From assembly GCA_963681505.1 (NCBI GenBank), contig OY811983.1:457501-521500 (forward strand): DNA of 64,000 nucleotides. Reading direction: 5' to 3'. Position numbers and translations under genes: made by a program. The stretch comes from Eunapius fragilis. Taxonomy: Eukaryota; Porifera; Demospongiae; Spongillida; Spongillidae. The notes under the pieces are model-generated. The model did not search any database and was not told the origin of the DNA. It saw only the letters and a list, made by a program, of their open reading frames with translations. This document shows, piece by piece, positions 23,914-50,700 of this stretch (position 1 is the stretch's first letter; every line of letters begins with the position of its first letter).

Positions 23914-24149
23914 CTGATGGGAGAGAACAGCAAAGCCTTTTATTACTTGGATACCTATCATTCCTCCTTAACATCACGACACACCCAAGTAATGGTACAC
24001 CAAGCACTGCCCAACCTACGCATTCAATCACAAACATCTAAACATGTTACCACCATTTTACACAACAGTACCCAGAACATAATATGCAATTTCATACATC
24101 ACACATAATTGTCTGATTGTTGAATTTATAGTTATTTCCACGCCCCTCT

Positions 24150-26994
24150 CTAGACACCCTGTTTGGTGTACATCATAAACAGACGCGAATAGATTTCACC
24201 AAAATCAGCACGCATGGTTGGTTCAGGAACCCAACACCTCTGCATGATGTCATACACCTCTTGGGGGCAGAGGTCAGGTCTGGAGAGAAGCTTCCTATCA
24301 GGGCCTCTGATGGCATCAGCAATCACCTCTTCATCTGTCATCTCCTCATAAGGGTCCACTTTGCCCAGGGTGTAGATCTCCCACATGGCCACACCAAATG
24401 CCCAACTGTCTGACTTCACAGAGAACTTCCCATAGAAGGTTTCGCAGGCCATCCATCGGATTGGTAGGATCAAGGTACCCTGGACACGATAGTAAGCTGA
24501 CTCGTACAGACTCCTGCTCATCCCAAAGTCAGAGATCTTCACCACAAAGTCTCTTCCAACCAGACAGTTCCTGGTGGCTAGATCGCGGTGCACAAATCGA
24601 CGAGAGCTTAGGTAGTGCATTCCACTGGCAATCTGGACCCCCATGTACAGGAGGATGATGGGGGTGACCTCATTCTCCTTCAGACCACTGATGGTGTCTG
24701 GCATCACTTTCTGTTTCTGTAAGAACTGGTTCAGGTCTCCATTCTCCATGTACTCCATCATGATGAAGGACTCTCCCTCTGTACACACACCAAGGAGTCT
24801 TACCACATTATCATGCTTCAGTCGAGACATGAACTTCACTTCTTTGTCAAATGCTTCCACCAGACCATTTTCAGCATCTTGTTTCAGTTTCTTGATGGCC
24901 ACCAATGTACCTCCATTTGCATCAGGTTCACCTTCACTTTGACACAATCCCACTAACTGCACTCCCACTGTCCTCGCGAGGATCACCTGACCAAACTGCC
25001 CCATACCCAAGTTGCGTATCTCAACAATATTCTTCCTGGTAACCTTGACAACAGAGCTGCTGTAGGCGGAAGGTTCCTTAGGCTCCTCGTAGATGGCACT
25101 ATATGGAATAGCCACATCACTGACACTGGTCACATCATAGTCATGTGTCAACATAGCTGGATCCAAGGCCTCGCTGTAGATCTGATCGTAGTCTGGGTCA
25201 CTAGTGGTGAAACCCTCCAGAGAAAAGCCATCTTGATACTGTGGATATGAGAAGTCAGGTGTCTTTAGCTCAGGATCCCTCCTGAGAGAGCCACTTAGCA
25301 CAAGGGCAGGGGTTGGGACGGACATGGTAATGGTGGGCGGAGCCTGGCTTGTATCCACCTCATCGTAGTACTTAGGATGGCTAGAGGGCGGGATTATTCT
25401 TGTCGTCCTCACATCAGGGCATGGGTCTGGGGCCCGGTCAAGATGCCCATTGTTAAAGGGGCGTGGTGAATGCAGAGATAGGCCACGCCCTTTGCGGGAT
25501 ACCTTGTCTGGATCTTCATACCCCGGTGCTTCCATGAGGGAGGCACGGGAGTCCACTGAGGTATCCTGAAGAGCAGCTGGTGCAGGTGATGGAGAGAGGG
25601 GCTTGGATACCTGAGAATACAAAGGTATCCTGTGTTGGCTGTTCATGCTGTCAGCTCTTTCATACGCCTCATTTTCATCCAATGGCTCTGTGTAGCCAGT
25701 GCATCTACTCCTGTACACCACCAGTACTACGACCACCACCAGAACGATGACCAAAATACCAAGGAAGCCAGCAGTACCACCAATCACAGCAGGGAGGATA
25801 CTACCACTCCCGGCACCACTGGATGGGGTCATGGTGGATGGGACAATGGAGCTGCCTGTTGGTATGAAGGTGGCAGTGAGGGGACCAGCCGGCTAGCTAG
25901 CCAGCCAAGTTACCATGGAAGCACATACAGGATGAAAGATTCCTATTAAAGCCTTACAACTGCCAAAACAAACGTCTACTGCCAACTTCAGTACCACAGG
26001 TCAATGCGTGCTACCATTGTCCCCCACATGGCCACACACATCTGCCAAATAATGTTACCCTGTGCTCTAAACTACGCTGACCAATAGATGATCTGTCTAC
26101 ATGCAACATAACATGCAACATAACATGGTCTAATAAACCACTGCTTACCCTCTACTGTCAGGGAGATATCTCCCGATTGGTCAGTTCCAAACAGTCTACA
26201 AGTGTACACACCACTGTCTGATGAGGTCAGTTGGGAGATGGTCAACACAGATACTCTGCTGGAGGTGTAATTAGCTCCCCCATACTGAGCTAGCTTGGTC
26301 CCATTCCGGTACACAATGCTGTACTTGGACTGGGCTGTGTCCACCCTCTGTCCCCCCCTAAACCACCAGAGGTCTCCATCAGGATGGATGTACTGGGACA
26401 TCTCACAACTCAGCTCCACTTGGGACGTTGTGTTGGTGTTGACAGTGATGTTAGTGGGCCCCAACACCTCCACCTTCACTGTGGGGATGGGGAAGAGGGG
26501 GAAGGAGGGTACACTGTCACATACTGCTCCCTCACATATCACACCACAACAGCTCACCTAAGAGGATTAGTTGGATGGTGGCTGAGTAGGACTCTGACCC
26601 ATTGGGTGGTGATGGTTGTACCACACAGGTATAGCTACCAGCATCAGTGTAACTCAACATTTGAATGATCAGTTGTGACCCATATGTGGCCAACAGCTGT
26701 CCATTGCGTACTAAATACCTTCCACCTGATGCTAAGGCCATTCCAGAACGGTACCATGTACCACTGAACTGAGATGAGGACACTGTACAGGCTAAAGAAG
26801 TAAATGATGGTGGTGCATCCTGCACTGCACTATCTCCATGAACCACAGGGTTGGAAAGGGGTGCCACTTGCAGTACTGTGTGAGGACATTAAGTAGTCCA
26901 ATCACATAACTGTTATGACATAGGGATGGGGCCTACCACTGGAGGTCAGTCCTGCCACTGTGAACAGTATAATCACGTGATGATGTGTGTTCAT
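24150..26994 (-). CDS. RTK-B: two-Ig receptor tyrosine kinase, DDR-like kinase
   Basis: Exons: 26937-26994 (signal peptide; MNTHHHVIILFTVAGLTSS), 26558-26875 (Ig1, Cys pair SLACTV...YTCVV, Trp in GTWYRSG), 26149-26478 (Ig2, LSCEM...YTCRLF) and 24150-25855 (TM, tail, kinase). All exon junctions are phase 1. TM: VIGGTAGFLGILVIVLVVVV. The tail has several tyrosines, including IYSEALDP and YSAIYEEP. Kinase: LGMGQFGQV, VAIKKL, YMENGDLNQFL, HRDLATRN, DFGMSRSLYESAYYRVQG (YxxxYY activation loop), LPIRWM, ending MMYTKQGV. The catalytic domain is closest in memory to discoidin domain receptors and Trk-like kinases, while the ectodomain is Ig-type as in sponge RTKs. The ligand is unknown. Nearly identical over long stretches to RTK-C, -D and -E. 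Confidence 0.93.
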
Positions 26995-27455
26995 GTCTGC
27001 TGTACGTCTAGGTTGTTCAGCAACTGCAAAATTACTTACCGCAAGTCGCTGTACCAACAAAGATAATTACCACGCTGCCACGAGCACGAATGAATATATG
27101 AAATGAGGTACATGCATGTGGACTAGTTAGTACATGCGCCTTTGTGGCTGCCGCACACAGCTCACAGGCCAAACATACAGCCCTATGGCGCTCTACTCAC
27201 CTTATCGCTGCAATCACTGCGACATAGAATATCCAACGTGACCAAAATTTGGCACAGCCGCTGATCGTGGGTTGAATAATTACATAACTTAATAAGCGTG
27301 GTGGGCGGGGCTAGTTGCGATATTTAGGCTAAGCAGTAGACAGATGATCTACTACGCGTGGTAGGTAATCAGTTTCACTCCCATGCTATTATTTGGCTAA
27401 CACCAGATTGGGTAAACAATTTTTTTTAAATGGTTAGCACACAAATACACACACG
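26995..27455. other. Intergenic region RTK-B 5' / RTK-C 3'
   Basis: About 460 bp between the RTK-B start and the RTK-C stop. Presumed RTK-B promoter near 27000-27250; an AT-rich 3' flank of RTK-C near 27415. No repeat or RNA gene recognised. Confidence 0.4.
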
Positions 27456-30400
27456 TTACACTCCATATTTGGTGTAGGCCATAAAAAGGCGTGAATATAG
27501 TTCAGTAAAATCTGCTCGCATTAAAGGTTCATGTGCCCAACACCTCTGCATGACGTCATACACCTCTTGGGGGCAGAGGTCAGGTCTGGAGAGAAGCTTC
27601 CTATCAGGGCCTCTGATGGCATCAGCAATCACCTCTTCATCTGTCATCTCCTCATAAGGGTCCACTTTGCCCAGGGTGTAGATCTCCCACATGGCCACAC
27701 CAAATGCCCAACTGTCTGACTTCACAGAGAACTTCCCATAGAAGGTTTCGCAGGCCATCCATCGGATTGGTAGGATCAAGGTACCCTGGACACGATAGTA
27801 AGCTGACTCGTACAGACTCCTGCTCATCCCAAAGTCAGAGATCTTCACCACAAAGTCTCTTCCAACCAGACAGTTCCTGGTGGCTAGATCACGGTGCACA
27901 AATCGACGAGAGCTTAGGTAGTGCATTCCACTGGCAATCTGGACCCCCATGTACAGGAGGATGATGGGGGTGACCTCATTCTCCTTCAGACCACTGATGG
28001 TGTCTGGCATCACTTTCTGTTTCTGTAAGAACTGGTTCAGGTCTCCATTCTCCATGTACTCCATCATGATGAAGGACTCTCCCTCTGTACACACACCAAG
28101 GAGTCTTACCACATTATCATGCTTCAGTCGAGACATAAACTTCACTTCTTTGTCAAATGCTTCCACCAGACCATTTCCAGCATTTTGTTTCAGTTTCTTG
28201 ATGGCCACCAATGTACCTCCATTTGCATCAGGTTCACCTTCACTTTGACACAATCCCACTAACTGCACTCCCACTGTCCTCGCGAGGATCACCTGACCAA
28301 ACTGCCCCATACCCAAGTTGCGTATCTCAACAATATTCTTCCTGGTAACCTTGACAACAGAGCTACTGTAGGCGGAAGGTTCCTTAGGCTCCTCGTAGAT
28401 GGCACTATATGGAATAGCCACATCACTGACACTGGTCACATCATAGTCATGTGTCAACATAGCTGGATCCAAGGCCTCACTGTAGATCTGATCGTAGTCT
28501 GGGTCACTGGTGATTGGAAAACCATCTTGATAACGTGCAGTTGAGAAATTTGATTGTGCAGTGGAAGGTCCACCAAGGACCACAGCTGGTGCTGGTACTG
28601 ATGGCCACTCCCCCTCCAACTCCTTATCATACATCTCATAATGGTTGTACAGGTCAGTGTCTGTACCAAGCTGCGAGGTGGGAGGGTGTGAGGGTTGTGT
28701 AGGAGGGTGTGGTAGGTGTGTAGGAGGGTGTGGAAGGTGTGGGCGTAGTGTAGGAGGAGAAGGGGAAGATGATGGAGACATGACAGCATAGGTAGGACTA
28801 CAGCCCTCAGGTTCCAAGGCTTCCTGTGCCTTGGATACACGTAGCAACGCTCGGGAGTTGGCAGATCGTACCAACACCACTGACAGTACAATGATGAGCA
28901 CGAGGACCAACAGGGCAAGGACACCTGCAATACCTCCAATCAAAGGTTTAAGGAAAGCCGTACTTGATGAGGGTGATGTTAAGATGGTTGGGGTGAGGAG
29001 AGAGGGGACATATACTGAAAGGCTCTCAGAAGTTACTGCAAGTGTTGGATTCAAACTGGATGAGCCTAAGAAGTGTGGGTGTGGCAAGTGGGTGTGGTAT
29101 GTGGAAAGCAACAAAGCATAACAAAATGAATTAAAAGATTCACTCATAGCTATGGAAACATACAGCCATCAATGAACCTCAGAATCTGTTTTCGTAACAC
29201 TTTGGACATATTTTTAGTAAAAAGATGCATTTAGAAAGACAGAATAACTTCCTTCATGCACTTGTTGTCCTGTGAGGGGGGGGGGGGGGGGGGGATAACC
29301 ATATTTTGATCTACCTTTGTCTAAGGGAAGTAACTGCATTATATCACTTACTTATTTTGAGAAATACCATGCATGAGTATATTAATTCTGGTTAGCAATT
29401 TTAACTATTCATGATAGTTAGCATCCTGCAATAACTAGTGCCAAAAACGGGTTGACTGCTTGCATGAAATATTTTCCCATAAAATTCTGACATTTAAAAA
29501 TTATGTGGTCAAATTCCGTAATAAGCATTGCACAATATATAATTTGTACAGCAAATGGCAAAAACATCGTAATTTGCTATGTGATACACTCAATTTTGAG
29601 GTCTGTATAATAGGGGGTGTGGTCTGTCATTAGACCACCTACTAACCTTTTAAAGTCATTCTTCCATCTTACAGTTAATCGTTTTGTGTTTGAATCCAGT
29701 ATTTATTAACATTAAAATGTTGACACCAAAACTTAACACCTATATGTATTTAAATTTCCTTACGCCATGCCCCGTCCCATTCACATGCACACTGTGTTGC
29801 TCAATACATGGGCCTGGGCCCCAGCACTGTGCAGCTACGTATACATCTTCCATCCTACCATCTTCCTCCTCCCCCTCTTTCTCCTCACCTCCTATCCTCC
29901 CCTTCTTTCTCCTCCCCATCCTCCCCTTCTTCCTCCCCCCATTCTCCCCTTCCTCCTCCCCATCCTTCCCTTCTTCCTCCTCCCCATCCTCCCCTTCTTC
30001 CTCCTCCCCATCCTCCCCTTCTTCCTCCTCCCCATCCTCCCCTTCTTCCTCCTCCCCATCCTCCCCTTCTTCCTCCTCCCCATCCTCCCCTTCTTCCTCC
30101 TCCCCATCCTCCCCTTCTTCCTCCTCCCCATCCTCCCCTTCTTCCTCCTCCCCATCCTCCCCTTCTTCCTCCTCCCCATCCTCCCCATTTTCCTCCTCCC
30201 ACACACATCATTGTACAAACTGTTATGTTATGACTTCAAACATTTCACACCACACACCTCATCAGTTTAATGATCCACACCACATTGTAAACACCTTGTG
30301 TCTACAAGTACCCTTGTGTTTGTGGGGATGTGTGTATGTAGGGATGACCTCACACCTCCACCCTCACACCTCAACCATAGCAATACCATATGAGGAACCT

Positions 30401-31411
30401 TTACAGATAAGATATTCAGAAAAACTATGTGCGTAAACACTTACCATGCAATTAGACTATATTGATATGTGAACTAAAGGCTTTTGGTCAAAATGCACAG
30501 ATAGAAAACATTCATTTAAAGCTACCAATATTATTAACACCATCGTATAACTATTAACTTCCATTACCCGCTACTTACCCATCACCATCAGGGTGATATC
30601 TCCTGATTGGTCAGTTCCAAACAGTCTACAAGTGTACACACCACTGTCTGATGAGGTCAGTTGGGAGATGGTCAACACAGATACTCTGCTGGGGATGTTC
30701 ATAGGTCCCCCATACTGAGCTAGCTTGGTCCCATTCCGGTACACAATGCTGTACTTGGACTGGGCTGTGTCCACCCTCTGTCCTCCCCTAAACCACCAGA
30801 GGTCTCCATCAGGATGGATGTACTGGGACATCTCACAACTCAGCTCCACTTGGGACGTTGTGTTGGTGTTGACAGTGATGTTAGTGGGCCCCAACACCTC
30901 CACCTTCACTGTGGGGATGGGGAAGAGGGGGAAGGAGGGTACACTGTCACATACTGCTCCCTCACATATCACACCATAACAGCTCACCTAAGAGGATCAG
31001 TTGGATGGTGGCTGAGTAGGCCTCTGACCCATTGGGTGGTGATGGTTGTACCACACAGGTATAGTTACCAGCATCAGTGTAACTCAACATTTGAATGGTC
31101 AGTAGTGACCCATATGTGGTGTCATTATACACAAGTCCATTGCCTACTACTGTATACCTTCCACCTGATGCTAAGGCCATTCCAGAATGGTACCATGTAA
31201 CAGTGAACTGAGATGGGAACACTGCACAGACTAGTGAAATAAAATATGTAGGATTGCTTCCGTAAACCACAGGGTTGCCAATAGGCACCACTTGCAGCAC
31301 TGTGTGAGGATATGTTACCCAATCACATTACCGTAATGACATAGGGGTGGGCCTACCGCTGGAGGTCAGTCCTGCCACTGCCAAGAATATGATCACGTGA
31401 CGTGTGTTCAT
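27456..31411 (-). CDS. RTK-C: two-Ig receptor tyrosine kinase, DDR-like kinase
   Basis: Exons: 31357-31411 (signal peptide, MNTRHVIIFLAVAGLTSS), 30988-31299 (Ig1), 30579-30908 (Ig2) and 27456-29065 (TM, tail, kinase), all phase 1. TM: LIGGIAGVLALLVLVLIIVL. The juxtamembrane part has a proline/histidine repeat (HPPTHLPHPPTQ) and then the shared block from DPDYDQIYSEALDP onward. The kinase is essentially that of RTK-B with a few substitutions, ending RLFMAYTKYGV, and all catalytic motifs are intact. The Ig1 N-terminal half differs strongly from RTK-B, but its C-terminal half and Ig2 are almost the same. The 1.5-kb intron between Ig2 and TM contains a G19 run (29276-29294) and a 24-bp polypyrimidine minisatellite. 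Function inferred: membrane receptor of unknown ligand. Confidence 0.93.
29276..29294. repeat. Poly-G tract (19 nt)
   Basis: Uninterrupted G run in the RTK-C intron; one of at least six G/C homopolymers in the window. Confidence 0.95.
29880..30195. repeat. 24-bp polypyrimidine minisatellite, RTK-C intron
   Basis: Roughly ten copies of a 24-bp unit (ccccatcctccccttcttcc plus cct and variants), giving about 300 bp that is almost entirely C/T on the plus strand. All six frames are open through it and yield spurious Glu-, Pro/Ser- or Gly-rich proteins. Confidence 0.96.
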
Positions 31412-31756
31412 TTCTAACCTGGTGGCAAAATAGTTAGTGGTAGTGAGGGCGTGTCTACCTTACAGAGCTCGGATCACAGCTAAGTATCCTATACCGACAG
31501 GCAGCGACACGAATGTTTGCACTACCGTACCCGTATGCACAGAACTTACTTCGCGTGCCTTCGCTTACTTACAGTTCATCTATAGTACGCGCTATCCCCA
31601 CGTATTGACATGAACTCACCTCCTAGCGCATCGCGGAATGGACAAAACAAAAAGAATTAGGTTGTTGATTAGATCATTCCAATTAGCGTATGTCATATAT
31701 AGCCACTCCCCAAACATCCCAGGCGGGTCTGAGCGATAATTAGTACAAAAACTAAA
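31412..31756. other. Intergenic region RTK-C 5' / RTK-D 3'
   Basis: 345 bp holding the presumed RTK-C promoter and 5' leader. No repeat or gene recognised. Confidence 0.35.
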
Positions 31757-33283
31757 CTAAACTGACAACGACAAATGAATGAAATCGAATGACCACCTAG
31801 CCAAAGGATCATGTACCCAACACCTCTGCATGATGTTATACACCTCTTGGGGGCAGAGGTCAGGTCTGGAGAGAAGCTTCCTATCAGGGCCTCTGATGGC
31901 ATCAGCAATCACCTCTTCATCTGTCATCTCCTCATAAGGGTCCACTTTGCCCAGGGTGTAGATCTCCCACATGGCCACACCAAATGCCCAACTGTCTGAC
32001 TTCACAGAGAACTTCCCATAGAAGGTTTCGCAGGCCATCCATCGGATTGGTAGGATCAAGGTACCCTGGACACGATAGTAAGCTGACTCGTACAGACTCC
32101 TGCTCATCCCAAAGTCAGAGATCTTCACCACAAAGTCTCTTCCAACCAGACAGTTCCTGGTGGCTAGATCACGGTGCACAAATTGACGAGAGCTTAGGTA
32201 GTGCATTCCACTGGCAATCTGGACCCCCATGTACAGGAGGATGATGGGGGTGACCTCATCCTCCTTCAGACCACTGATGGGGTCTGGCATCACTTTCTGT
32301 TTCTGTAAGAACTGGTTCAGGTCTCCATTCTCCATGTACTCCATCATGATGAAGGACTCTCCCTCTGTACACACACCAAGGAGTCTTACCACATTATCAT
32401 GCTTCAGTCGAGACATGAACTTCACTTCTTTGTCAAATGCTTCCACCAGACCATTTCCAGCATCTTGTTTCAGTTTCTTGATGGCCACCAATGTACCTCC
32501 ATTTGCATCAGGTTCACCTTCACTTTGGTACACCCCCACTAACTGCACTCTCACTGTCCTCGCGAAGATCACCTGACCAAACTGCCCCATACCCAAGTTG
32601 CGTATCTCAACAATATTCTTCCTGGTAACCTTGACAACAGAGCTACTGTAGGCGGAAGGTTCCTTAGGCTCCTCGTAGATGGCACTATATGGAATAGCCA
32701 CATCACTGACACTGGTCACATGTGTCAATATAGCTGGATCCAAGGCCTTACTGTAGATCAGATAACAGCCTGGGTCACATCGTCTCACAATGGGTAGAGT
32801 TCTTACAACAGCGGACTGGGGACCAGCAACATCAGAGGCAGTACCTAAAGACAGTATACCAGGATGCAGTGGGGTGTGGTCATTATGAGGTAATAGATAT
32901 GGCTGCGGTTCATAAGGCTGGGGACCCACAGGGGGTGGAAGAGGAAGTGACCGCCGGGGACCCCCAGGGGGTGGGGGAGGAGGTAGTGATCGTTGGGGAC
33001 CCCCAGGGGGTGCAGGAGGAAGTGGGGGAAGTGATTGCCTACATATGTGATCAGGAAGAATGGAAGCCATGTTCAGAGCAACAGCACCATCTCTATGAGT
33101 GGGTGGTATGTGACAACACTGGGCCCACAAGGCGATGACAATTGTCACGATAACCACCACAATAACCATGCCTAGCAATGCTGTGACCACACCCACTACT
33201 GGGATAATGTATCCTTTGGGCACACCTCCTGGTGCTGTAACATTTAGTGGACCCTTTGGAGAAGAGAGAGATAAGAGCTCACA

Positions 33284-33332
<49 letters not shown>

Positions 33333-34258
33333 TACATATACACGATAGCCATGCGGGGTTAATGTCTTCATCATGTGCTCTTCCACTAAAGAAGCCAGGC
33401 CCCACCCACCACATACATATACAATGTATAGATCACCGCCATCTTACCTCTACTGTCAGGGAGACATCTCCTGATTGGTCAGTTCCAAACAGTCTACAAG
33501 TGTACACACCACTGTCTGATGAGGTCAGTTGAGAGATGGTCAACACAGATACTCTGCTGGAGGTGTTCATAGCTCCCCCATACTGAGCTGGCTTGGTCCC
33601 ATTCCGGTACACAATGCTGTACTTGGACTGGGCTGTGTCCACCCTCTGTCCTCCTCTAAACCACCAGAGGTCTCCATCAGGATGGATGTACTGGGACATC
33701 TCACAACTCAGCTCCACTTGGGACGTTGTGTTGGTGTTGACAGTGATGTTAGTGGGCCCCAACACCTCCACCTTCACTGTGGGGATGGGGAAGAGGGGAA
33801 GGAGGTTACACTGTCACATACTGCTCCCTCACATATCACACCACAACAGCTCACCTAAGAGGATCAGTTGGATGGTGGCTGAGTAGGACTCTGACCCATT
33901 GGGTGGTGATGGTTGTACCACACAGGTATAGTTACCAGCATCAGTGTAACTCAACATTTGAATGATCAGTACTGACCCAAATGTGGTGTCATTATACACC
34001 TGTGCATTCTGGAGTATTGAATACTTCCCTGGTTCCAATGCTCTTCCACTACGAGACCACACTACAGTAAACTGAGTGATGGTCAGAACACAAGATAGTG
34101 TTGTGAAGGTAGGGGGCTGGTCGATGCCTTCCACCAACGGGTTAAGAAGTGGTACAATTATCGATCCTGCGGAATGTACAAATATTCATGAGATGAAACG
34201 CTCGCAAGTACTCACGTGATTCAATTGCTGATGCCAAAATGATGAGACATCGATACAT
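31757..34258 (-). CDS. RTK-D: two-Ig receptor tyrosine kinase, kinase C-terminus replaced
   Basis: Exons: 34216-34258 (signal peptide start MYRCLIILASAIES), 33855-34166 (Ig1), 33448-33776 (Ig2) and 31757-33253 (TM, tail, kinase). TM: VVGVVTALLGMVIVVVIVTIVI. The juxtamembrane part has Pro-rich repeats (LPPPPPPGGPRRSLP) and a shorter version of the shared tyrosine block. Kinase motifs are intact (LGMGQFGQV, VAIKKL, HRDLATRN, DFGMSRSLYE), but after CWVHDPLAR the usual ending (F-E-YSRL) is replaced by WSFDFIHLSLSV and a stop. The last helix of the C-lobe is therefore altered or lost. Ig2 ends in phase 0 rather than phase 1, matched by a phase-0 acceptor at the TM exon. A CA tract (33284-33330) lies in that short intron. 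Probably expressed, but kinase stability is doubtful. Confidence 0.88.
33284..33330. repeat. (CA)n microsatellite in RTK-D intron
   Basis: About 20 CA units with one interruption, just 5' of the TM-kinase exon on the coding strand; it is read through by the long open frame but lies upstream of the inferred acceptor. Confidence 0.93.
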
Positions 34259-34674
34259 TCCTACCCCAGTTCTTATATGCGTGTATGTCCTTCCTACCAC
34301 GTCAAACATTTTTCCTTGCCCGGCCGAAGTAAGGAAAGACGTTGTCTTAGCTATTAATTCTGTTTCGAACTTTGTCACGTAGCAATGTCACCCTGCATGT
34401 GATGCAACACGACCTCCTTGCAGCGCACGTGAGCGGTCCAAGGTACTAGTAATCTAATAGATCTGCTAGTAGCGTGGCGCTGCAGAATCAACTCTGTTCA
34501 TTCAAGCACCTGCCATTAGTATATGACAATAAAACCATTCCTCATGTTAATTGGATATTTACTTTTCTGGATTGTTTGCTGTTCAATTTCATATCGATTT
34601 GGCTTATGCATTTTCATCACACACAACACACACACACACACACACACGCACACACACACATACACATACCACCA

Positions 34675-34711
<37 letters not shown>

Positions 34712-36083
34712 CTCAGTCATTTAACGTTGGTGACTAAGTTAACTAGTTTTCATAGCATTTACCAGTGAGTGTTCACAGCAACTGTAGTCTGACAGACCTT
34801 CCAACTCACCCGCATTTTGCGGGTGCACTCGTAATTGAAAGGATTCACCCGCTCACCCGCACAGCAATTACTAGTATGCAATCACCCGCATTTGTAAGTC
34901 TGGAATATTACATATTTAGCCCACTCCAACCCTATCCGAGACTTTAAGTTACTAAAGTAGATTTTTTTGGAAAGTCTGCCTGCTGTGACAGCAAGATAGT
35001 CACAATGTAGTCATGGGGACTTCCAGTATCAAACCATCTATATGATTGTGTATGTCCTGGTGTGTGATAGACAGGTATTGGGGAAGTTCGCAGAAGAATA
35101 ATATCAAAAACTATGATGAAAAACTATGATGGGGTCCAGAGGCCATGTTTGAAGGGGTCCTGAGGCCATGTTTGAAGGGGTCCTGAGGCCATGTTTGAAG
35201 GGGTCCAGAGGCCATGTTTGAAGCCTCTGGACCCCTTCAAGCATAGCCTCTGGACCCCTACAAGCATGGCCTCTGGACCCCTTCAAGCATAGCCTCTGGA
35301 CCCCTACAAGCATGGCCTCTGGACCCCTTCAAGCATGGCCTCTGAACACCCTTCAAGCATGGCCTCCGGACCCCTTCAAGCATGGCCTCCGGACCCCTTC
35401 AAGCATGGCCTGACTGCTGCAATGTTGCCATCCACACCATGTATCAAGTTCTTTGACCATGTTGATACCAAAGGGGCCAATGTTAGATGACTTCAATTTA
35501 ATAAACACAGAAGTGGCGCTTCAATCACCTAACTTGTCCTTTCAACTTCATGAGGTGAAGCAACTACATTTACAGCGTCTGGCTGATTTGCTTTCCGCTG
35601 AACAAGTGAAAACATCCTTACAGCACAATCATTGGCCCGCTCGTTAAGATGTAGACTTTTGCCACCTGGATATCTGCTGTGATGTGCATTAGATGAAACA
35701 GATCTCCCACCGTTTGATTAAAACTACCCGCACTGACATAGCCCTTAACTTCAGAGGCCTTTGTACCAGTTGATTTTCACTCATGCCCACATTACAATTA
35801 ATTGCTATCGTATTTTGTTTTTCCATGTTTATCCCAATATTATAGTATGTCAAGACACTCTATCATCCTGCTATTTTTTCTACACGCATGATCGAGCTGC
35901 TAATTTCTCTACTGATAACCAACCCACTACTGCAAGACACCTTTCTTCTTCATGTCAGCGGACACATGATCTAGCTTGAACTCACGGTTGGCATGTAGAA
36001 ATGTGGCCCATACTTCAATATGCTTGTTTGTGTGGGGGGGGAGGGGGTGTTGATCTGCACTTCATGATCAGTCAGATGCAGCA

Positions 36084-36118
<35 letters not shown>

Positions 36119-36512
36119 TCATACGCACTCCTAGTGCTGGCCATGGTACACATTGGGTCACTTGCTGCCATAACACAGGTTCTAAAGCGACCCACCCTGA
36201 ACCCAAGTCACCCCACTAACAGCATAGCATCAACAATATGACTGCCAACTTGGCACTTCATATATACACATGTCTCAGTATGTATGTTAGTACAAGCCAT
36301 GCAGGCACAAAGCCAAGGACACACCTTCAACAACACACCACATATAATATTACAGTGGTGAGGGTCAGTTGTAATGGCCATAGCTAATTAGTAATGAGGG
36401 AGTGAGGGAGGGAGAGGAGGGAGTGGGGGATGGATGGAGAGGAGGGAGTGGAGGGTGGGTGGAGAGAACATGAATAATAATAATTTATAACCATGGTAAG
36501 AGAAACTTGGCA
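34259..36512. other. Repeat-rich intergenic region RTK-D / RTK-E
   Basis: 2.25 kb without a supported gene. Contains CA tracts (34622-34710 and 36082-36118), a hairpin CACCCGCATTTTGCGGGTG near 34807-34826, a head-to-head 23-bp minisatellite (35130-35408) and GGAG-rich repeats near 36395-36470. A 64-codon plus-strand frame at 35453-35647 has no recognisable homology and is not called. Confidence 0.5.
35130..35408. repeat. 23-bp minisatellite that reverses orientation
   Basis: About four units of the form ggccatgtttgaaggggtcc, then at about 35222 the array flips and continues with seven to eight units of the reverse complement form (cctctggaccccttcaagca). The junction makes a large inverted repeat. 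Confidence 0.93.
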
Positions 36513-39004
36513 TTATTTTGCTACTTGACTCAAGAATGTGGTTGTGCAGTCCATGGGCCTTGTGTAGATGAGATACAGACGTGAATATATCTCTCCAAAG
36601 TTTGCCCTAGCCAAAGGATCATGTACCCAACACCTCTGCATGATGTCATACACCTCTTGGGGGCAGAGGTCAGGTCTGGAGAGAAGCTTCCTATCAGGGC
36701 CTCTGATGGCATCAGCAATCACCTCTTCATCTGTCATCTCCTCATAAGGGTCCACTTTGCCCAGGGTGTAGATCTCCCACATGGCCACACCAAATGCCCA
36801 ACTGTCTGACTTCACAGAGAACTTCCCATACAAGGTTTCGCAGGCCATCCATCGGATTGGTAGGATCAAGGTACCCTGGACACGATAGTAAGCTGACTCG
36901 TACAGACTCCTGCTCATCCCAAAGTCAGATATCTTCACCACAAAGTCTCTTCCAACCAGACAGTTCCTGGTGGCTAGATCGCGGTGCACAAATCGACGAG
37001 AGCTTAGGTAGTGCATTCCACTGGCAATCTGGACCCCCATGTATAGGAGGATGATGGGGGTGACCTCATTCTCCTTCAGACCACCGATGGTGTCTGGCAT
37101 CACTTTCTGTTTCTGTAAGAACTGGTTCAGGTCTCCATTCTCCATGTACTCCATCATGATGAAGGACTCTCCCTCTGTACACACACCAAGGAGTCTTACC
37201 ACATTATCATGCTTCAGTCGAGACATGAACTTCACTTCTTTGTCAAATGCTTCCACCAGACCATTTTCTGCTTCTTTCTTTAATTTCTTGATAGCAACTA
37301 ATGCACTCCCATTTGAATCAACACTGGCTTCACATAACTGCAGGCTAAGACCAACAGTTCTACACAGAATGACCTCCCCAAACTGGCCCATTCCTAAATC
37401 ACGAATCTCACTGATGTTCTTCCAAGTAACACTGAGGCATTCATGTCCTCTTTCAGGCTGCTTAGGGATTTCGTATATTGCTGTGTAAGGAAAGCACACC
37501 TCCTCTAAGGGCCTATTCTCAGACAGTAGCAAAGATGGATCAATAGTTTCCAAGTAATAATCACTTTCTTTGCTGAAAAAGTTTTCTACTTCATAGTAAT
37601 GCTGAGGGTCTGCATCAAATATGTTATGTTTACCCCTAGTGTCAGGCAGCACATATGAAGGCATATCATATGTGTAATCCATTTCTGTTCTTTTGCAAAG
37701 TGTTGTGCTTTGAGTCTCATAGGGCTGTGGCACTGTTGGCAGACTATCTGTACAGTGTGTAGACTGGCTGTCTGGTGTCTGAACTGAAAATTATGTAGTG
37801 TGTATAAATGAAATTATTTGCCTGCAAACTTACTATTCATTTGGCTTGATGACTCATATACTCCATTGTCATAAAGTGGTTCAGTGATCACTGTGTTTGT
37901 ACCATGCTTCTTAAATAAAGCAGTGACCAATATTATGAGCAAAGTGATTAGTATAACAAGACCAATTGCTCCTCCAATGGCTAGAGCAATAAGAGGAGAT
38001 GCTTCATTTGGTGCAGAGGGTAGAATGTGATGAGCTGCATGGAGATGTGTGTTAGGTAGCCATAAGACCACTATGTGTGTTAGGTAACCATAAGACCCAC
38101 TATGTATGTTAGGTAGCCATAAGACCACTATGCCTCTCATAATGTCAGTAATGCTTACCCTCTACTGTCAAAGTGATATCTCCTGATTGGTCAGTTCCAA
38201 ACAGTCTGCAAGTGTACACACCACTGTCTGATGAGGTCAGTTGGGAGATGGTCAACACAGATACTCTGCTGGAGGTGTAATTAGCTCCCCCATACTGAGC
38301 TAGCTTGGTCCCATTCCGGTACACAATGCTGTACTTGGACTGGGCTGTGTCCACCCTCTGTCCCCCCCTAAACCACCAGAGGTCTCCATCAGGATGGATG
38401 TACTGGGACATCTCACAACTCAGCTCCACTTGGGATGTTGTGTTGGCATTGACAGTGATGTCAGTGGGCCCCAACACCTCCACCTTCACTGTGGGGATGG
38501 GGAAGAGATGGAGGAGGGTACACTGTCACATACTGCCCCCTCACATATCACACCACAACAGCTCACCTAAGAGGATCAGTTGGATGGTGGCTGAGTAGGA
38601 CTCTGACCCATTGGGTGGTGATGGTTGTACCACACAGGTATAGTTACCAGCATCAGTGTAGTTTAATCTTAGCAAGAGGAGATAAGTCCTTTCAAGAATA
38701 TATTTATTAGTGTCATTTCTGATTTCACTGTACATGTACATGTACCAGGTCAAATTTGAGTGGTTGTTTGGTACAGTGCAATTCAGTGCCTTCGACGGTA
38801 GAAATACGCTGTCTCCAAGGACCACAGTGGCGTTAGTGTTGATCTCTGTACCGGGTAAGAACAATTACATCTGGTCGTCTCGAGAGTGTCACCATGACAT
38901 GCAGTCAGTAATCAATGTGTTAGCTTACCGCTTACTGTTGCATCTGAAGCCAACGTCAGTATGATGAAAGACGCTACCCACGATAAACGGCGTGTACAAT
39001 CCAT
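36513..39004 (-). CDS. RTK-E: two-Ig receptor tyrosine kinase, TM and kinase on separate exons
   Basis: Exons: 38929-39004 (signal peptide, MDCTRRLSWVASFIILTLAS), 38567-38845 (Ig1), 38159-38488 (Ig2), 37834-38034 (TM) and 36513-37783 (tail and kinase). TM: LIALAIGGAIGLVILITLLI. The tail tyrosine block is diverged (DYYLETIDPSLL, YTAIYEIP). Kinase: LGMGQFGEV, VAIKKLKKEAENGLVEAF, then a C-lobe almost identical to RTK-B/-C/-D, ending RLYLIYTRPMD. The N-lobe upstream of AENGLVEAF is clearly different at DNA level, so the sequence identity starts abruptly near 37260. It alone in the group has an intron between TM and kinase (37784-37833, 50 bp). Ig1 is the most divergent of the four and N-glycosylation rich. 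A 28-bp repeat occurs three times in the Ig2-TM intron (38046-38135). Confidence 0.92.
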
Positions 39005-39354: not shown

Positions 39355-39460
39355 CATAGCGGATTTTGTCCCCCCCAAAAAGTGTCCCCCCGGACACAAT
39401 CCGCTAGCGGATTCTGTCCCTCCTCCGCAGAATGTGTCCCCCCCCCCCCCCCCCCCCCCC
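39355..39460. repeat. GC-rich repeat, CTAGCGGATT family, copy 1
   Basis: Contains agcggattttgtcccccc, a central ccgctagcgg palindrome and cctccgcagaatgtgtccc, ending in a C23 run (39438-39460). Homologous in reverse orientation to 41470-41600. Confidence 0.75.
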
Positions 39461-39473
39461 TCCAACAATAAAT

Positions 39474-42960: not shown

Positions 42961-45900
42961 TCAGGTTACTTGGCAGTCCAACAAAGCTTGATGAGCCTCT
43001 TCAAATGTTGGTCTTTTAGCAGGATCATGTGCCCAGCACCAAACCATAATCCTGTATACTTCAGACGGGCATATTTCAGGCATAGCCAGTAATGTCCTGG
43101 CTTCTCCAAGGGTGGCGTCTTCAATGAGGCATTCATCCTCCATTTCAGCATAGGGCAGGGTCTGTGCAAGAGTGTATATCTCCCACATCACTACACCGAA
43201 TGACCACACGTCACTCTTCTCAGAAAACCGACCATAAAAGCTTTCTGTTGGCATCCAACGAATTGGGAGCCTTGGCTGTCCTCGTATGCAACAATATGCT
43301 GACTCATACAGATTTGCTGTCATACCAAAGTCTGAAATCTTCACCGCATAGTCTTTTCCCACCAGACAGTTCCTAGTGGCCAGATCACGGTGCACAAAGT
43401 GAAAGGAGGCAAGGTATCTCATACCGTTGGCAACCTGTGTGGCCATGTGCAATAGAACTGAAGGTGAAAGGTAACCCTCTAAGTGTTGGGATGATACTTG
43501 ATGCTTTAGGAGTACATTGTTGAGGTCACCATTCTCCATGTACTCCATTACAATGAATGGTGCACTGTTCTCACTACCCTCATGGACTGCCAGTAAGCGC
43601 ACCACATTCTCATTATTCAGACGTGACATGAACTTAATTTCCTTCTTGAAGGCATCAAGAGCATCTGGTTCAGCATGCTCCTTCAACCTCTTTACAGAGA
43701 CTTTAACCCTGTCTCCTTCATCCCCATCACCAATAACTCCAAGGCACTCCAAACTGACCCCCTCCAATTCTGCCAATAGAACCTCTCCAAATTGCCCCTC
43801 CCCCAATAGTTCTATCTCATGAACATTCTCGGGTGAAATGTTGAGCGGCTTTTCAAAATTCCCAGGCAGGTTTGCATAAATGGAGTAAGACAAATGATCT
43901 ATCGGTTCTTGAGCATGCAGGGTGGGATCAGGGTCCAGAGCTGTGCTGTATATATGATCAGGGTCTTCACTACCATCAGGAGGGTCATCATCCATAGTGG
44001 GCACGTCATGGATATTGCTCACACCTGAGCCATACACAGCATTAATGGACCAGGTCATGTTTTGAAGAGCTGCCTCAGTGGTAGTAGCTAGTTTTCCTGG
44101 CTTGGATGGGCCGGTCAAACATCGCTTTCTTACTGATTCCTGTTCTGAGGGAGATGATGGAGAGATTACCTCTGGGATGGTGATCAGATTTCGCGCAGGA
44201 ACAGAGGCCACTACACTACCCATCTGGTATTGGATGTCCACTGGTTTGATCTTTTTGACAGGTATTTTCTTCGTTTGCAAATGCTTTCCCTTGTCAACAT
44301 TTTCATAGCACCCTGCCTCCACTTCTTCTTCATCTTGCTCAAACAGTGGGTTGGCTGTAAAAATAATTCCAGATTCATCAGTTATCTGTGCTAGTTTCCC
44401 AGCTTTGGTAGGTCCAACCAGAACGTTCTTCTGGTAGTCAGAGCCAGGTGTGTCCTGGACATCACTCTGTCTCTCACACCTGGCCTCTTCCTGCCCCTTC
44501 CACGCTGAAATCGTTGGAGATTGTGTTGCTCCAACTACACTATATGTGCTCACTTCTGGGTCTTTGGACTCCACCCCCTCCATTTCATTTTTCCTTACAT
44601 CCTTAAAGGTCTTTGTGGCAATCCAGATGTTCTTGTTCTTGTATTTCTTAAGATACAGGAACACTAGCAACAAAACCACCACTGCCGCTAGGGCAATGAT
44701 TATTATTATCCCAATAACCAGACCTGCTGCTAGTGACCCTGTCTCTGCCCCAAGTGCAGCCAAGGGGGCAGGGCTTGAGGTGGATACAAGGTGGAGGGCG
44801 GAGCTTGAAGGCCATTGGGCAGAGCTTGAAGGCAATTTTGTTGAGCCAACAATTGATGTAGCATTACCTAATGAGAAGTAATAAATGACCAGTCATAATG
44901 ACCAGTCATAATGACCAGTCATAATGACCAGTCATAATGACCAGTCATAATGACCAGTCATAAATGGTTCTACATCCACTGACAATACTGTTTACTAGAA
45001 CACATGCATAGCCATATATCAACCCTCACACCATCCTCCTCACTCCCTCACTCCACAGCTATCTCCCTCACTCTTATTAATCCACACAAGCTCCCCATCC
45101 CCACTTCCACACACTCATATCCATACACATACTCCCACACCGGCCCTGACTACTGTCTACAGATCTCACACATCACACACTGAACTGCAGCTTGATAGTA
45201 GTGTTGGCTGTAGTGTTAGTTTGTAATCTGTATCTCACTACACACACATAGCTCCCTGAATAGGTGGAACTGATATTTTGCAGCTGTAGTATACTTGTCC
45301 TGGTTCCATCCCCAATCCACATCTGGTACTGAACAGAAACTGGTATGGTCCAATTCCAATCAAAGCTTCCCTCATTCACCACAGTACAGGAAAGGTTGTA
45401 GCTAGTTAGTGGGCTCAGTACTCCAAGAGTTACCACATTTGGGCGGGGGAGGAGTGATATGTTCCTCCCTGTAGGGGATGACACTGTGGAGGGAAGGGGT
45501 GTGGTCACTACTGTCAACCCTCCAATCAGAGGAGTGGTGGTTACCTGCAGTGTTAAAGAGCTGTATCTCACTAAGGAGGAGTGTCCTCACCAGTATGGAG
45601 GAGGGGAAGGAGAAGCGAATATGTAAGCTCTTGTACAGATTTATTCTTGATGTGATGAGAAGGGAGATATTACGTAATCCTGAATCATTCTGGCTGAGGT
45701 ACTGGTTTCTTGCTATAGTGAAATTCAATGGGTTTGTTGTATTCCCAAATAACCCATCTATCTCTGGTAGGCCAATTCCAATTGAAGGTTGGTTAGTGAA
45801 AGAAAGAGTAACTCCAGTTACATTGGTTTGTGACAAAAATGTGAATATCATATTAAAAGATTGATTCCACTCAAAAGCCTTGGAATTGTTATAACCCATG

Positions 45901-46156
45901 ACTGGCCCCTGGTCTCCATCAAACAAGAGGTAAGTACCATTGCATACAAGCACTGTTGCGTTCAGGGTGCAATTCCTGCTTAGAGTTGAGTTTTTGACGT
46001 TTGCTGGAGGAGGTGTGAGTTGTGTGGAGCTGATGTACACTTTGGTAAGAGGCACAGAAGTATTAAGGTGACACAGTGATGGTAGCCATACTTACCTTGG
46101 CCCACTGCAAGTGCTGACAGGGTTAACACAACACAATACTGAATAAGGGCCATCAT
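42961..46156 (-). CDS. RTK-F: receptor tyrosine kinase with unusual N-terminal domain plus Ig
   Basis: Exons: 46096-46156 (signal peptide, MALIQYCVVLTLSALAVGQ), 45545-46039 (N-terminal domain of about 165 residues, rich in N-glycosylation sites, ending LLLSEIQLFNTA), 45181-45483 (Ig-like, YNLSC...YVCVVRY) and 42961-44867 (TM, long tail, kinase). Introns 61 bp and longer, phase 1. TM: IIIIIALAAVVVLLLVFLYL. The tail carries a duplicated GP(T/S)K(A/P)GKLA motif and the tyrosine block IYSTALDP...YSIYANLP. Kinase: LGEGQFGEV, Lys in VSVKRL, YMENGDLNNVL, HRDLATRN, DFGMTANLYESAYCC, LPIRWM. The activation loop has Cys where the other copies have the second of two adjacent tyrosines. The N-terminal domain is not one I can name; the LSEIQLFN ending is weakly reminiscent of discoidin-type folds. 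Confidence 0.9.
44882..44965. repeat. 13-bp tandem repeat, RTK-F intron
   Basis: Six to seven copies of a 13-bp unit (aatgaccagtcat) in the intron between the Ig-like and TM exons, starting 14 bases from the acceptor. Confidence 0.94.
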
Positions 46157-50000: not shown

Positions 50001-50320
50001 CGCAGACAACTCCCTTGTTGGTGGTGGCTGTGTTTGTTCCATTGTAGATCTCGGGTAGTGGTCTTAGCTTTGTGGAGGTGAGCATTACTGTTAAGCAAGG
50101 GTGAGAAGGGAAGGCATTAAATGGAGCAGAAAGAAGAGGTGGTAGAAAATGAGAGGGAAAAGAGGAGAGTGTGGGAAGATGGGAGAAGTATAGAGTGTGG
50201 GAGGGAGAGGTGTTGAGTGTGGGGAAGATGGGAGAAGTTTAAAGGCTGTAAGTAGTGTGTACATTGAGCTGATGTCAGAATTGGAAGGATTACTACTGCA
50301 GCCAGCAGAAGAGAAGCCAT
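47076..50320 (-). CDS. RTK-G: receptor tyrosine kinase with RTK-F-type domain and two Ig-like domains
   Basis: Exons: 50263-50320 (signal peptide, MASLLLAAVVILPILTSAQ), 49551-50087 (RTK-F-type N-terminal domain), 49187-49489 (Ig-like 1), 48807-49136 (Ig-like 2, FTCEVYGYSS...YTCAYGLSS) and 47076-48754 (TM, tail, kinase). TM: VIGGVVGCIGLLIAVTAGLIVG. Tail tyrosines: IYSEALSP and VSIYADPEP. Kinase: LGVGQFGHV, VAVKRLKED, YMENGDLSLYL, HRDLATRN, DFGMSRSLYSNDYYKLRG, LPIRWM, ending YASMCNDIP. All motifs needed for catalysis are present. It has one more Ig-like domain than RTK-F; the C-terminal part of the N-domain, the following intron and Ig-like 1 are nearly identical to RTK-F. Exon 2 is followed by a 61-bp intron. 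Confidence 0.9.
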
Positions 50321-50700
50321 TATCTGGAGGAGGCAGACAATGGTGTAAAAATGTTGACATCAATTGATCCATAGTTATGTGTTGGTAAAAAAATTTTAAC
50401 GTTGTGCATTGTAATATGTTATCGCACACATGTACATGATGATACAAGACAATAACATCCCCCCCCCCCCCCCCACCCCCACCACAGTGATGGTTGGCCA
50501 AAATCAGAGGCACAACCCCAGCTCATGCAGGAAACCCTGGGGCTTGTGGGCCCAAAGCACCAGGTCAGCTCATGAGGGCCCAAAGCACCAGGTCAGCTCA
50601 TGAGGGCCCAAAGCACCAGGTCAGCTCATGAGGGCCCAAAGCACCAGGTCAGCTCATGAGGGCCATGGAGGTGTGGCCATGGAGGTGTGGCCGTGGAGGT
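50321..50700. repeat. RTK-G upstream region with 28-29-bp and 14-bp repeats
   Basis: Poly-C tract at 50459-50474. Then four to five copies of a 28-29-bp unit (caaagcaccaggtcagctca core, 50548-50660), followed by four to five units of ggccatggaggtgt (50661-50725). The RTK-G promoter is presumed near 50330-50450. Confidence 0.85.

Follow-up and report, generated by a model that had tools for sequence, protein, structure and literature searches.

Four adjoining receptor-kinase genes on chromosome 13 (C13) of the freshwater sponge Eunapius fragilis, RTK-B to RTK-E, are nearly identical in some modules and near synonymous saturation in others, and it is well supported by their sequences that interlocus gene conversion homogenises the former. 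We consider it probable that this conversion is recurrent and keeps kinase-bearing and short-tailed receptors paired, with matched ectodomains and differing signalling parts. The genes were analysed in a 64-kb stretch of DNA, referred to here as the window.

The comparisons were run on spliced gene models, which are open in all four genes; the Ig exon splice sites were verified in each, and the transmembrane (TM) exon acceptors of RTK-C and RTK-D are less certain than these. HRDLATRN and DFG are present in all four kinases, Pfam PF07714 is matched by RTK-B (E 1.7e-80) and RTK-D (E 5e-79), and the ectodomains of RTK-B and RTK-E match Pfam Ig families. The combination of a tyrosine kinase, extracellular Ig domains, and a signal peptide and TM segment (both assigned by eye) makes RTK-B to RTK-E receptor tyrosine kinases (RTKs). 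Their Ig1 and Ig2 exons are flanked by phase-1 introns, with the exception of the 3' end of the RTK-D Ig2 exon, and RTK-E has an extra juxtamembrane (JM) intron absent from the other three. The features are as follows, all on the minus strand:

26937..26994, minus: RTK-B exon 1 (signal peptide), ATG, GT donor
26652..26875, minus: RTK-B Ig1 outer (N-terminal) part, RTK-B/C/S1 type, 89% to S1 of the second cluster
26558..26651, minus: RTK-B Ig1 C-terminal part, from YTDAG, homogenised in nine genes
26479..26557, minus: RTK-B intron 2, GT..AG, homogenised
26149..26478, minus: RTK-B Ig2 exon, homogenised in nine genes
24150..25855, minus: RTK-B TM/juxtamembrane/kinase exon, stop at 24150, PF07714, TM/JM gene-unique
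24253..24869, minus: RTK-B kinase aC to C-lobe tract, 99% to RTK-C, -D, -E
31357..31411, minus: RTK-C exon 1
31082..31299, minus: RTK-C Ig1 outer part
30988..31081, minus: RTK-C Ig1 C-terminal part, homogenised
30909..30987, minus: RTK-C intron 2, homogenised
30579..30908, minus: RTK-C Ig2 exon, homogenised
27456..29065, minus: RTK-C TM/juxtamembrane/kinase exon, acceptor one of several candidates
27559..28175, minus: RTK-C kinase C-lobe tract
34216..34309, minus: RTK-D exon 1
33949..34166, minus: RTK-D Ig1 outer part, old divergence
33855..33948, minus: RTK-D Ig1 C-terminal part, homogenised
33777..33854, minus: RTK-D intron 2, homogenised
33448..33776, minus: RTK-D Ig2 exon, homogenised, phase 0 end unlike RTK-B, -C, -E
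31757..33253, minus: RTK-D TM/juxtamembrane/kinase exon, early end, PF07714, acceptor picked by eye for phase 0
31839..32455, minus: RTK-D kinase C-lobe tract
38929..39004, minus: RTK-E exon 1
38661..38845, minus: RTK-E Ig1 outer part, most divergent
38567..38660, minus: RTK-E Ig1 C-terminal part, homogenised
38489..38566, minus: RTK-E intron 2, homogenised
38159..38488, minus: RTK-E Ig2 exon, homogenised
37834..38034, minus: RTK-E TM exon, followed by the extra intron absent from RTK-B to -D, acceptor one of two candidates
36513..37783, minus: RTK-E juxtamembrane/kinase exon, against B-D saturated in the N-lobe and near-identical in the C-lobe
36649..37265, minus: RTK-E kinase C-lobe tract
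48756..50348, minus: RTK-G ectodomain region, common to short-tailed SG of the second cluster (93.7% in an alignment of 1642 columns that counts introns and 52 gap positions)
45183..45950, minus: RTK-F ectodomain, inner Ig homogenised with RTK-G and SG, outer domain divergent

From aC to the C-lobe, the kinases are 98.6-99.5% identical with dS of 0.007-0.030 in all six pairs among RTK-B to -E, whereas the TM segment and juxtamembrane region, described in an earlier sequence-only reading as hardly alignable, indeed show 38.5-47.0% identity and dS from 1.9 to saturated in every pair. Synonymous divergence is far from equal along the genes, whereas an equal level throughout is what that reading had named as evidence against its own proposal. 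Just past 'RC' in RCWV, the last ~27 codons are divergent again in all six pairs, and the C-terminal tail is near synonymous saturation. The kinase N-lobe is 96.7-98.8% identical among RTK-B, -C and -D, and 58-60% identical and saturated against RTK-E. Within one exon, dS between RTK-E and the other three falls from saturation in the N-lobe to 0.015-0.030 in the C-lobe, and the tree distance from RTK-E to RTK-B is ~0.98 changes per site in the former versus 0.007 in the latter. The ends of the kinase tract lie inside exons. A GENECONV-type check, an exact-run permutation test on RTK-B to -E with RTK-A, RTK-F and RTK-G as added rows, gave P<=0.0032 in all six pairs among RTK-B to -E and, with mismatches allowed, P=0.0002 (the floor) in all six; none of the four pairs of RTK-A with these genes was significant (nominal P values throughout).

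In the ectodomains of RTK-B to -E, identity is 96.8-100% in the C-terminal part of Ig1, 93.6-98.7% in intron 2 (~79 bp) and 94.2-97.3% in Ig2, compared with 41.7-86.0% in intron 1 and 36-44% in the first 200 nt of intron 3, which served as controls. The near-identity claimed from the letters for Ig2, the ~80-bp intron, the C-terminal half of Ig1 and the kinase C-lobe is confirmed for each named part, but the list omitted the kinase N-lobe of RTK-B, -C and -D, and the Ig module reaches beyond the four genes. Ordinary recent whole-gene duplication was rejected, as intron 3, the TM/JM region, the C-terminal ends and, in most pairs, intron 1 either cannot be aligned or approach saturation. Purifying selection alone is ruled out by the dS contrast within one exon, and the homogenised synonymous sites and intron 2 likewise uphold the earlier argument that selection on the protein is insufficient.

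The outer half of Ig1 is poorly alignable, as had been stated, in five of six pairs (39-64%), but RTK-B and RTK-C are 82% identical there. Its dS is 0.78-0.89 for B-D and C-D, with dN/dS of ~0.5, and is >1.5 or saturated against RTK-E; divergence among the four genes is mostly old, and the half looks like a region that homogenisation has skipped. Among nine pairs, dN clearly exceeds dS in this half for one, RTK-B versus the short-tailed gene S1 (dN 0.144, dS 0.034; bootstrap P 0.003, Fisher 0.033; nominal values, 27 tests in all), for which n:s counts in Ig1N versus Ig1C+Ig2 give Fisher P 0.041. Of the proposal that diversity concentrates where the outer Ig would contact ligand, the divergence of the outer half stands, while hypervariability at a ligand site is not supported by dN/dS. 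Nor does diversity span the whole outer face, because the CDR3-like F-G loop, by standard Ig topology, presumably sits in the homogenised half of Ig1.

The same Ig module is found in five kinase-less genes, S1-S5, located 0.73 Mb away in opposite orientation and followed by short tyrosine-bearing tails. All nine Ig2 copies are on C13: four, read from the minus strand, fall within 483-496 kb, and the other five, read from the plus strand, within 1231-1325 kb. Ig2 of S1-S5 is 94-96% identical to that of RTK-B. Between RTK and S genes, identity is 94.6-98.9% in Ig1C, 91.0-97.5% in intron 2 and 93.6-97.3% in Ig2; mean Ig2 identity is 0.960 for RTK-RTK, 0.958 for RTK-S and 0.966 for S-S pairs, and within-cluster identity exceeds between-cluster identity by 0.008, a difference reached in 2 of 126 label permutations. 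Across Ig1C-intron2-Ig2, 168 of 351 informative-site pairs are mutually incompatible, with adjacent sites more compatible than shuffled ones (P=0.005). The tree of this region places the four RTKs on one side of a branch weakly (54/73) and sets RTK-B, -D and -E apart from RTK-C and S1-S5 (support 96/94).

S1 is a mosaic, matching S2 at 33 of 35 informative sites in the signal peptide and intron 1 and RTK-B at 62 of 66 in the Ig1 outer half (P=0.0001), with the breakpoint between intron 1 and Ig1. Five of eight mosaic trios gave P<=0.0064, the mosaic always being S1, B or C, and the three on RTK-D and RTK-E were without significance (P 0.44-0.93). After correction, the Ig run test was significant in 8 of 36 pairs for exact runs, in 9 of 36 with mismatches allowed, and in 0 of 20 RTK-S pairs; direct evidence of conversion between clusters comes mainly from the S1 mosaic. 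The recent gene conversion proposed earlier is supported, more strongly than the letters of the four genes allowed, by homogenised synonymous sites and intron 2, by kinase tracts ending within exons and by a shared module 0.73 Mb off in inverted clusters, between which reciprocal crossing-over would be expected to rearrange the chromosome. Genome searches with Ig1 of B, D and E, the counts of which are lower bounds, returned the nine genes, one relic (C13:1234112-1234575) broken near its midpoint, one diverged relative at 2.657 Mb, and weak matches on C10 and C7; a VLR-like large store of Ig1 donor fragments is unsupported by them.

A second ectodomain family shows a similar arrangement. RTK-G and the short-tailed SG have a common ectodomain (coding DNA 96.5-99.1%; dS 0.016-0.100 over three coding blocks), and their likeness stops at or before the TM exon; between RTK-F and RTK-G, dS is 0.87 in the outer domain and 0.14 in the inner Ig. 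The tails of the S genes are without a kinase. Among the 12 tails read, ten have a tyrosine with I at +3 (YxxI), ten a C-terminal YI and none an ITAM; the strict ITIM [SIVL]xYxx[ILV] occurs in three (S3, S4 and S5), and S1 and S2 have P at -2. Tail dN/dS of 0.45-1.1 in six more distant comparisons is a weak sign of constraint. Damaging-looking changes in S2 (Ig2 core Cys to Trp, tail end altered), S3 (Ig2 core Trp to Cys) and SG (tail end shortened) suggest that the second cluster may be partly decaying.

The RTK and S genes have the strongly homologous ectodomains and differing cytoplasmic signalling parts that define paired receptors, and their homology is kept by gene conversion, which is frequent in such receptors and not strictly required. 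In the mechanism we propose, recurrent conversion on C13 would hold at least nine two-Ig receptors, namely the four RTKs and S1-S5 with their conserved tail tyrosines, alike in intron 2, Ig2 and the membrane-proximal part of Ig1, while a separate tract would keep the catalytic C-lobe alike in the four kinases. The Ig1 outer half, TM segment and docking-tyrosine region would stay specific to each gene, although conversion may at times carry this half of Ig1 from a gene of one kind, kinase or short-tailed, to a gene of the other, as in S1. The S ectodomains are presumably spliced to their tails and co-expressed with the RTKs. Matched ectodomains may then bind or compete for one kind of ligand, with opposing signalling: kinase members would act via autophosphorylation, and short-tailed members could modulate the resulting signal, either as kinase-dead partners or through recruited SH2 or PDZ proteins, possibly in immune or self/non-self recognition.

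Two-Ig queries from both ectodomain families found as their best two PDB structures 8qpx (RTK fragment) and 8ovq ('cell recognition molecule, long form'), which we take to be the Geodia cydonium RTK and the long form of SAM from the same species. Both are far diverged from the window (best-match E 1.3e-10 and 2.5e-11; range 1e-9 to 1e-11) and identical to each other at 182 of 192 aligned residues. Like the RTK/S pairs described here, they comprise one RTK and one near-identical molecule whose name mentions no kinase; a search of open-access papers turned up neither a genomic cluster nor conversion data for the two. With Ig1 alone as the query, sidekick-1 and titin were best, 8qpx being 7th and 8ovq 12th. 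The RTK-B kinase domain is best matched by DDR and Trk structures; the gene-specific ectodomain and juxtamembrane region set the sponge receptors apart from these types, and no discoidin domain was among the Pfam hits of the ectodomains scanned. Tblastn confirmed no relatives in GTDB genomes and IMG/VR.

Neutral concerted evolution, in which near and similar genes convert, outer Ig1, TM and JM have drifted past the similarity needed, and no pairing is selected, is in our view an unlikely account. It can draw on the outer-half dN/dS <1 in RTK-D comparisons, on tracts that stop where flanks are already unalignable and on the damaged look of some short-tailed genes, but it sits poorly with near-equal homogenisation across 0.73 Mb, inverted clusters and two ectodomain families, with similarity that in each family stops at the TM exon or earlier, and with what is apparently the same kinase/non-kinase pairing in 8qpx/8ovq. 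We give still less credence to a single recent burst, by which one Ig cassette was copied into pre-existing genes through exon shuffling or segmental duplication, with no continuing conversion and no pairing. The incompatible, spatially clustered site pairs, the separate C-lobe tract with ends inside exons, the S1 breakpoint and the branch that sets B, D and E apart all speak against it, even though Ig2 divergence is about equal over all pair classes, as a star-like burst predicts, the phase-1 introns favour shuffling, and the run test is significant for none of the RTK-S pairs. An assembly artefact placing one gene several times is very improbable: the assembly as published contains 802 gaps and had haplotypic duplications curated, but its QV is 60.4 (PMC12616128), no N occurs in the window or in 130 kb of the second cluster, and the copies carry substitutions and different flanks. 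Strong purifying selection on DNA or RNA is already contradicted, for although short intron 2 could carry splicing signals, among B-E the C-lobe has hardly changed at synonymous sites, where the neighbouring RTK-A has 52-83% DNA identity to RTK-B across the same segments, and the RTK-E N-lobe is saturated in the same exon.

Recurrent conversion of paired receptors, the reading we prefer, invites comparison with other systems. Hydractinia Alr is Ig-like and, to our knowledge, has no kinase; Alr and Botryllus fester/FuHC are, like the genes of this sponge, clustered recognition-type receptors of a sessile or colonial animal. Vertebrate immune receptors include pairs that match in their outer part and differ in the signalling tail, and paired Ig receptors held together by gene conversion have, as far as we know, been described mainly from mammalian immunity. 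In Siglec-11/Siglec-16 and CEACAM1-related receptors, Ig ectodomains are kept alike by conversion and cytoplasmic parts differ (PMC5701461 and PMC2832619), as in the sponge. Their activating member works through an adaptor or an ITAM-like tail, whereas one sponge member is itself a receptor tyrosine kinase, and the converted Siglec regions are ~9 kb apart (PMC5701461), whereas the sponge clusters are 0.73 Mb apart and inverted. Alr2 stands out by its fusion genetics and by alleles numbering in the hundreds (PMC8129030); the sponge locus here is known from one haplotype's sequence. Titles and abstract openings among the matches listed from the open literature, a scope mostly excluding older sponge papers in subscription journals, contained no report of sponge-RTK conversion or kinase/short-tail pairing.

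If this reading is true, the same signature in a sponge, with an RTK as one partner, would place the paired design near the base of animals. More tentatively, conversion might move Ig1 outer-half specificity cassettes between kinase and short-tailed partners, so that one specificity would serve both a signalling and a modulating receptor. In one of the animal phyla that branched earliest, this would amount to a paired-receptor locus and a candidate for self/non-self or symbiont recognition, with concerted evolution preserving the same pairing in demosponges only distantly related. RNA-seq of E. fragilis exists and the alternate haplotype GCA_963681495.1 is published (PMC12616128), and the genes described here, all on one chromosome, are concrete candidates for sponge self/non-self genetics. 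They also offer a natural test case of conversion keeping some gene modules alike while others, a few codons away, are saturated.

The genome analysed, that of the freshwater demosponge Eunapius fragilis, comprises 218,937,333 bases in 24 contigs, among them C13 (chromosome 13; 7,354,498 bases), C8 (9,933,287) and C9 (9,792,930); the consulted section of the report on odEunFrag1.1, the assembly of this species, gives 23 chromosomes, 218.91 Mb, and a 28.5-kb mitochondrion (PMC12616128). The window corresponds to C13:457501-521500. An alternate haplotype (GCA_963681495.1) and RNA-seq data from a Tennessee specimen (ERR11641155) have also been published. The four receptor tyrosine kinase (RTK) genes RTK-B to RTK-E (B, C, D and E) all lie on the minus strand and encode, in order, a signal peptide, Ig1, Ig2, a transmembrane (TM) segment, a juxtamembrane region and a kinase, with an intron of ~79 bp (intron 2) between the two Ig exons. 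The Ig exons splice cleanly in all four gene models, and Pfam recognises Ig domains in B and E and kinases in B and D, these being the ones scanned.

Features in and beside the RTK genes (window positions)
22184-24037, minus strand: open frame of RTK-A, 113 bp 3' of the RTK-B stop, with TM segment and kinase and no Ig exon seen; good phase-1 acceptor at ~23914 (pyrimidines at 12 of 15 positions)
29867-30200: 24-bp minisatellite array within intron 3 of RTK-C
35127-35411: 23-bp minisatellite between RTK-D and RTK-E, forming a large inverted repeat with 97-nt arms, 89% complementary
39370-39466 and 41448-41577: inverted repeat pairs ~2 kb apart, arms 80% complementary; a possible mobile element
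45402-46091: relative, in RTK-F, of the RTK-G outer domain

Recent gene conversion among the four genes, proposed by the sequence-only reading, is borne out by homogenised synonymous sites, by a homogenised intron 2 and by kinase tracts in all six pairs (run-permutation: P<=0.0032 exact; 0.0002 with mismatches allowed). These tests included RTK-A, RTK-F and RTK-G, which kept homogenised columns informative, and no tract appeared in the four RTK-A comparisons. The cytoplasmic parts of B, C, D and E were compared by codon alignment in all six pairings. As had been claimed, the TM and juxtamembrane regions are barely alignable (38.5-47.0% identity, dS 1.9 to saturated) and the stretch from helix aC to the C-lobe is nearly identical (98.6-99.5%, dS 0.007-0.030); over the last ~27 codons, dS is 1.2-2.1 or saturated. 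The N-lobe ('AIPYSAIYEE' to 'NGLVEAF') is 96.7-98.8% identical among B, C and D, while that of E matches theirs at 58.0-60.2% with saturated dS. RTK-E switches from diverged to homogenised within a single exon, at about the NGLVEAF codons (37245-37265), and by maximum likelihood E and B are separated by ~0.98 changes per site over the N-lobe and 0.007 over the C-lobe. The homogenisation is non-allelic, with kinase boundaries inside an exon, and given the tracts and the saturated and near-zero dS within the same genes, synonymous divergence is far from equal along their length. In a genome DNA search, C-lobe DNA at least 97% identical occurs in the four window genes only; the next match by score reaches 72% and shorter pieces 70-77%, all inside the window. 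Over the C-lobe, DNA identity between RTK-A and B ranges from 52 to 83%. Since the acceptor of RTK-A is compatible with the RTK-B Ig2 donor, RTK-A could be an alternative last exon, swapping kinases on the RTK-B ectodomain.

The near-identity read in the ectodomain was also confirmed: among the four genes, the C-terminal part of Ig1 (Ig1C) is 96.8-100% identical, intron 2 93.6-98.7% and Ig2 94.2-97.3%, with intron 1 (41.7-86.0%) and the first 200 nt of intron 3 (36-44%) as controls. The homogenised part of Ig1 starts just before 'YTDAG(N/S)YTC', a boundary that, by standard Ig topology, we take to precede the F strand, so the CDR3-like loop should lie inside the homogenised half. The N-terminal part, or outer Ig1, had been called hardly alignable, which holds at the low end (39% identity, D-E) but not for B-C (82%).

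A genome search with Ig2 DNA, which sets a lower bound on copy number, found at least nine copies, all on chromosome 13 and four within the window; a protein search added only two relatives, both diverged (42-45% identical). The second cluster on this chromosome includes S1 to S5, short-tailed two-Ig genes whose Ig2 is 94-96% identical to that of RTK-B. No kinase was found at 1.22-1.35 Mb among the 13 matches with E<=1e-40 (144 of 515 candidates scored). Over the 130 kb examined, every S gene comprises a signal peptide, then Ig1, intron 2 and Ig2, and further downstream a TM exon with a short tail, to which the ectodomain is predicted to splice.

Features of the second cluster on C13
1,230,641-1,324,606, plus strand: S1 to S5
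1234112-1234575 (L010:4100-4620): Ig1-only relic 3' of S1, split by a ~150 bp insert that is reminiscent of a small DNA transposon, its ends appearing palindromic by eye
1,253,853-1,255,491: ectodomain of SG, the short-tailed partner of RTK-G
~1,264,347-1,264,772: tail exon of SG
L012:5492-10000 to ~C13:1264257: 21-bp minisatellite of SG, more than 214 copies between Ig exons and TM exon; comparable arrays separate Ig2 from TM in S1 and S2

Homologous tails gave 14 matches, on C13, C8, C9 and C5. Among the 12 tails read, a tyrosine with isoleucine at +3 occurs in 10, a YI terminus in 10, C-x-A-Y in 8, a strict ITIM in 3 and an ITAM in none. The S tail contains YYSEIQ and, at its C-terminus, DDYI. 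Two tail loci outside the cluster, C8:2300801-2304300 (L023) and C9:520501-523800 (L025), have fibronectin type III or EGF exons close by on their upstream side, and the short tyrosine tail may for this reason be a general sponge signalling module. Three of the six short-tailed genes carry likely lesions, in Ig2 core residues (S2, S3) or at the tail end (S2, SG).

Mean Ig2 identity is 0.960 for RTK-RTK pairs (6), 0.958 for RTK-S pairs (20) and 0.966 for S-S pairs (10), and RTK and S genes are ~27-46% identical in upstream sequence and intron 3. Across Ig1C, intron 2 and Ig2, within-cluster identity exceeds between-cluster identity by 0.008 (as high in 2 of 126 label permutations); in the corresponding tree a weak branch (54/73) places the four RTKs on one side, and a stronger one (96/94) puts C with the S genes, opposite B, D and E. 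Of the 351 informative-site pairs in this module, 168 cannot be fitted to a single tree, and compatibility is higher between neighbouring sites than after shuffling (P=0.005). The corrected run test was significant in 8 of 36 pairs (exact) or 9 of 36 (mismatches allowed), with no RTK-S pair among them. S1 agrees with S2 at 33 of 35 informative sites in its signal peptide and intron 1, and with RTK-B at 62 of 66 in outer Ig1 (mosaic test P=0.0001). Five of eight mosaic trios gave P<=0.0064, the mosaic gene in these being S1, B or C; the three in which it was D or E were not significant. For the outer-Ig1 tree, the AU test rejects monophyly of the four RTKs (p-AU 0.035) and does not reject a grouping of B with C and S1 (p-AU 0.175). 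The S1 mosaic is the direct evidence for cross-cluster exchange. Because the two clusters lie on one chromosome in opposite orientation, reciprocal exchange would rearrange the chromosome, and non-reciprocal conversion would be the simpler mechanism.

A second ectodomain family includes the neighbouring genes RTK-F and RTK-G, which are 69% identical in the outer domain (dS 0.87) and 94% in the inner Ig (dS 0.14). The coding blocks of RTK-G and SG are 99.1%, 98.8% and 96.5% identical, and identity is 93.7% over 1642 aligned columns, introns and 52 gap positions included; the similarity breaks down at or before the TM exon. About 9 kb of 21-bp minisatellite lies between the SG ectodomain and the tail exon predicted to belong to it. 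The outer domain of RTK-G (window 49429-50238) has no Pfam match, and this domain of RTK-G and RTK-F is possibly an undescribed sponge ectodomain. Ig modules are common to the two clusters in two ectodomain families, with one mosaic gene.

The proposed hypervariability of outer Ig1 and its reading as a site of ligand contact are unproven. In outer Ig1, dN/dS is ~0.5 for B-D and C-D, ~1 for B-C, 0.67 for C-S1 and 0.4-0.9 in four further pairs, and is high only in B-S1 (4.2; 22.2 nonsynonymous and 1.8 synonymous changes). The B-S1 excess (bootstrap P 0.003, Fisher 0.033; nine pairs tested, uncorrected), together with the contrast in nonsynonymous to synonymous changes between outer Ig1 and Ig1C plus Ig2 (Fisher P 0.041), is a lead towards diversifying selection, not proof of it.

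Whichever family the two-Ig query came from, the two top-ranking solved structures are 8qpx, an RTK fragment, and 8ovq, a 'cell recognition molecule, long form'. The two are alike at 182 of 192 aligned residues; with an Ig1-only query they rank 7th and 12th. We take 8qpx to be the RTK and 8ovq the SAM of Geodia cydonium. If so, a sponge of another order has the pairing too, probably with concerted evolution; the RTK/SAM pair itself would then be less novel and is probably already known, and the contribution of this work is the genomic conversion system. A Geodia RTK with an Ig-like domain is cited in the consulted part of PMC12018476, and the consulted parts of PMC11999971, PMC8662651 and PMC8129030 do not describe such a sponge system. 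Precedents among vertebrates, in the portions consulted, are the Siglec-11/16 (PMC5701461) and CEACAM (PMC2832619) pairs.

Selection would keep the ectodomains matched across two kinds of signalling tail; the scarcity of strict ITIMs and the likely lesions count against the full functional claim. The stronger statement is that sponge kinase and non-kinase receptors share and exchange Ig modules, like paired immune receptors. On the kinase side, each RTK has a different set of juxtamembrane tyrosines joined to a nearly identical catalytic C-lobe, and through these gene-specific tyrosines one catalytic engine would gain several outputs.
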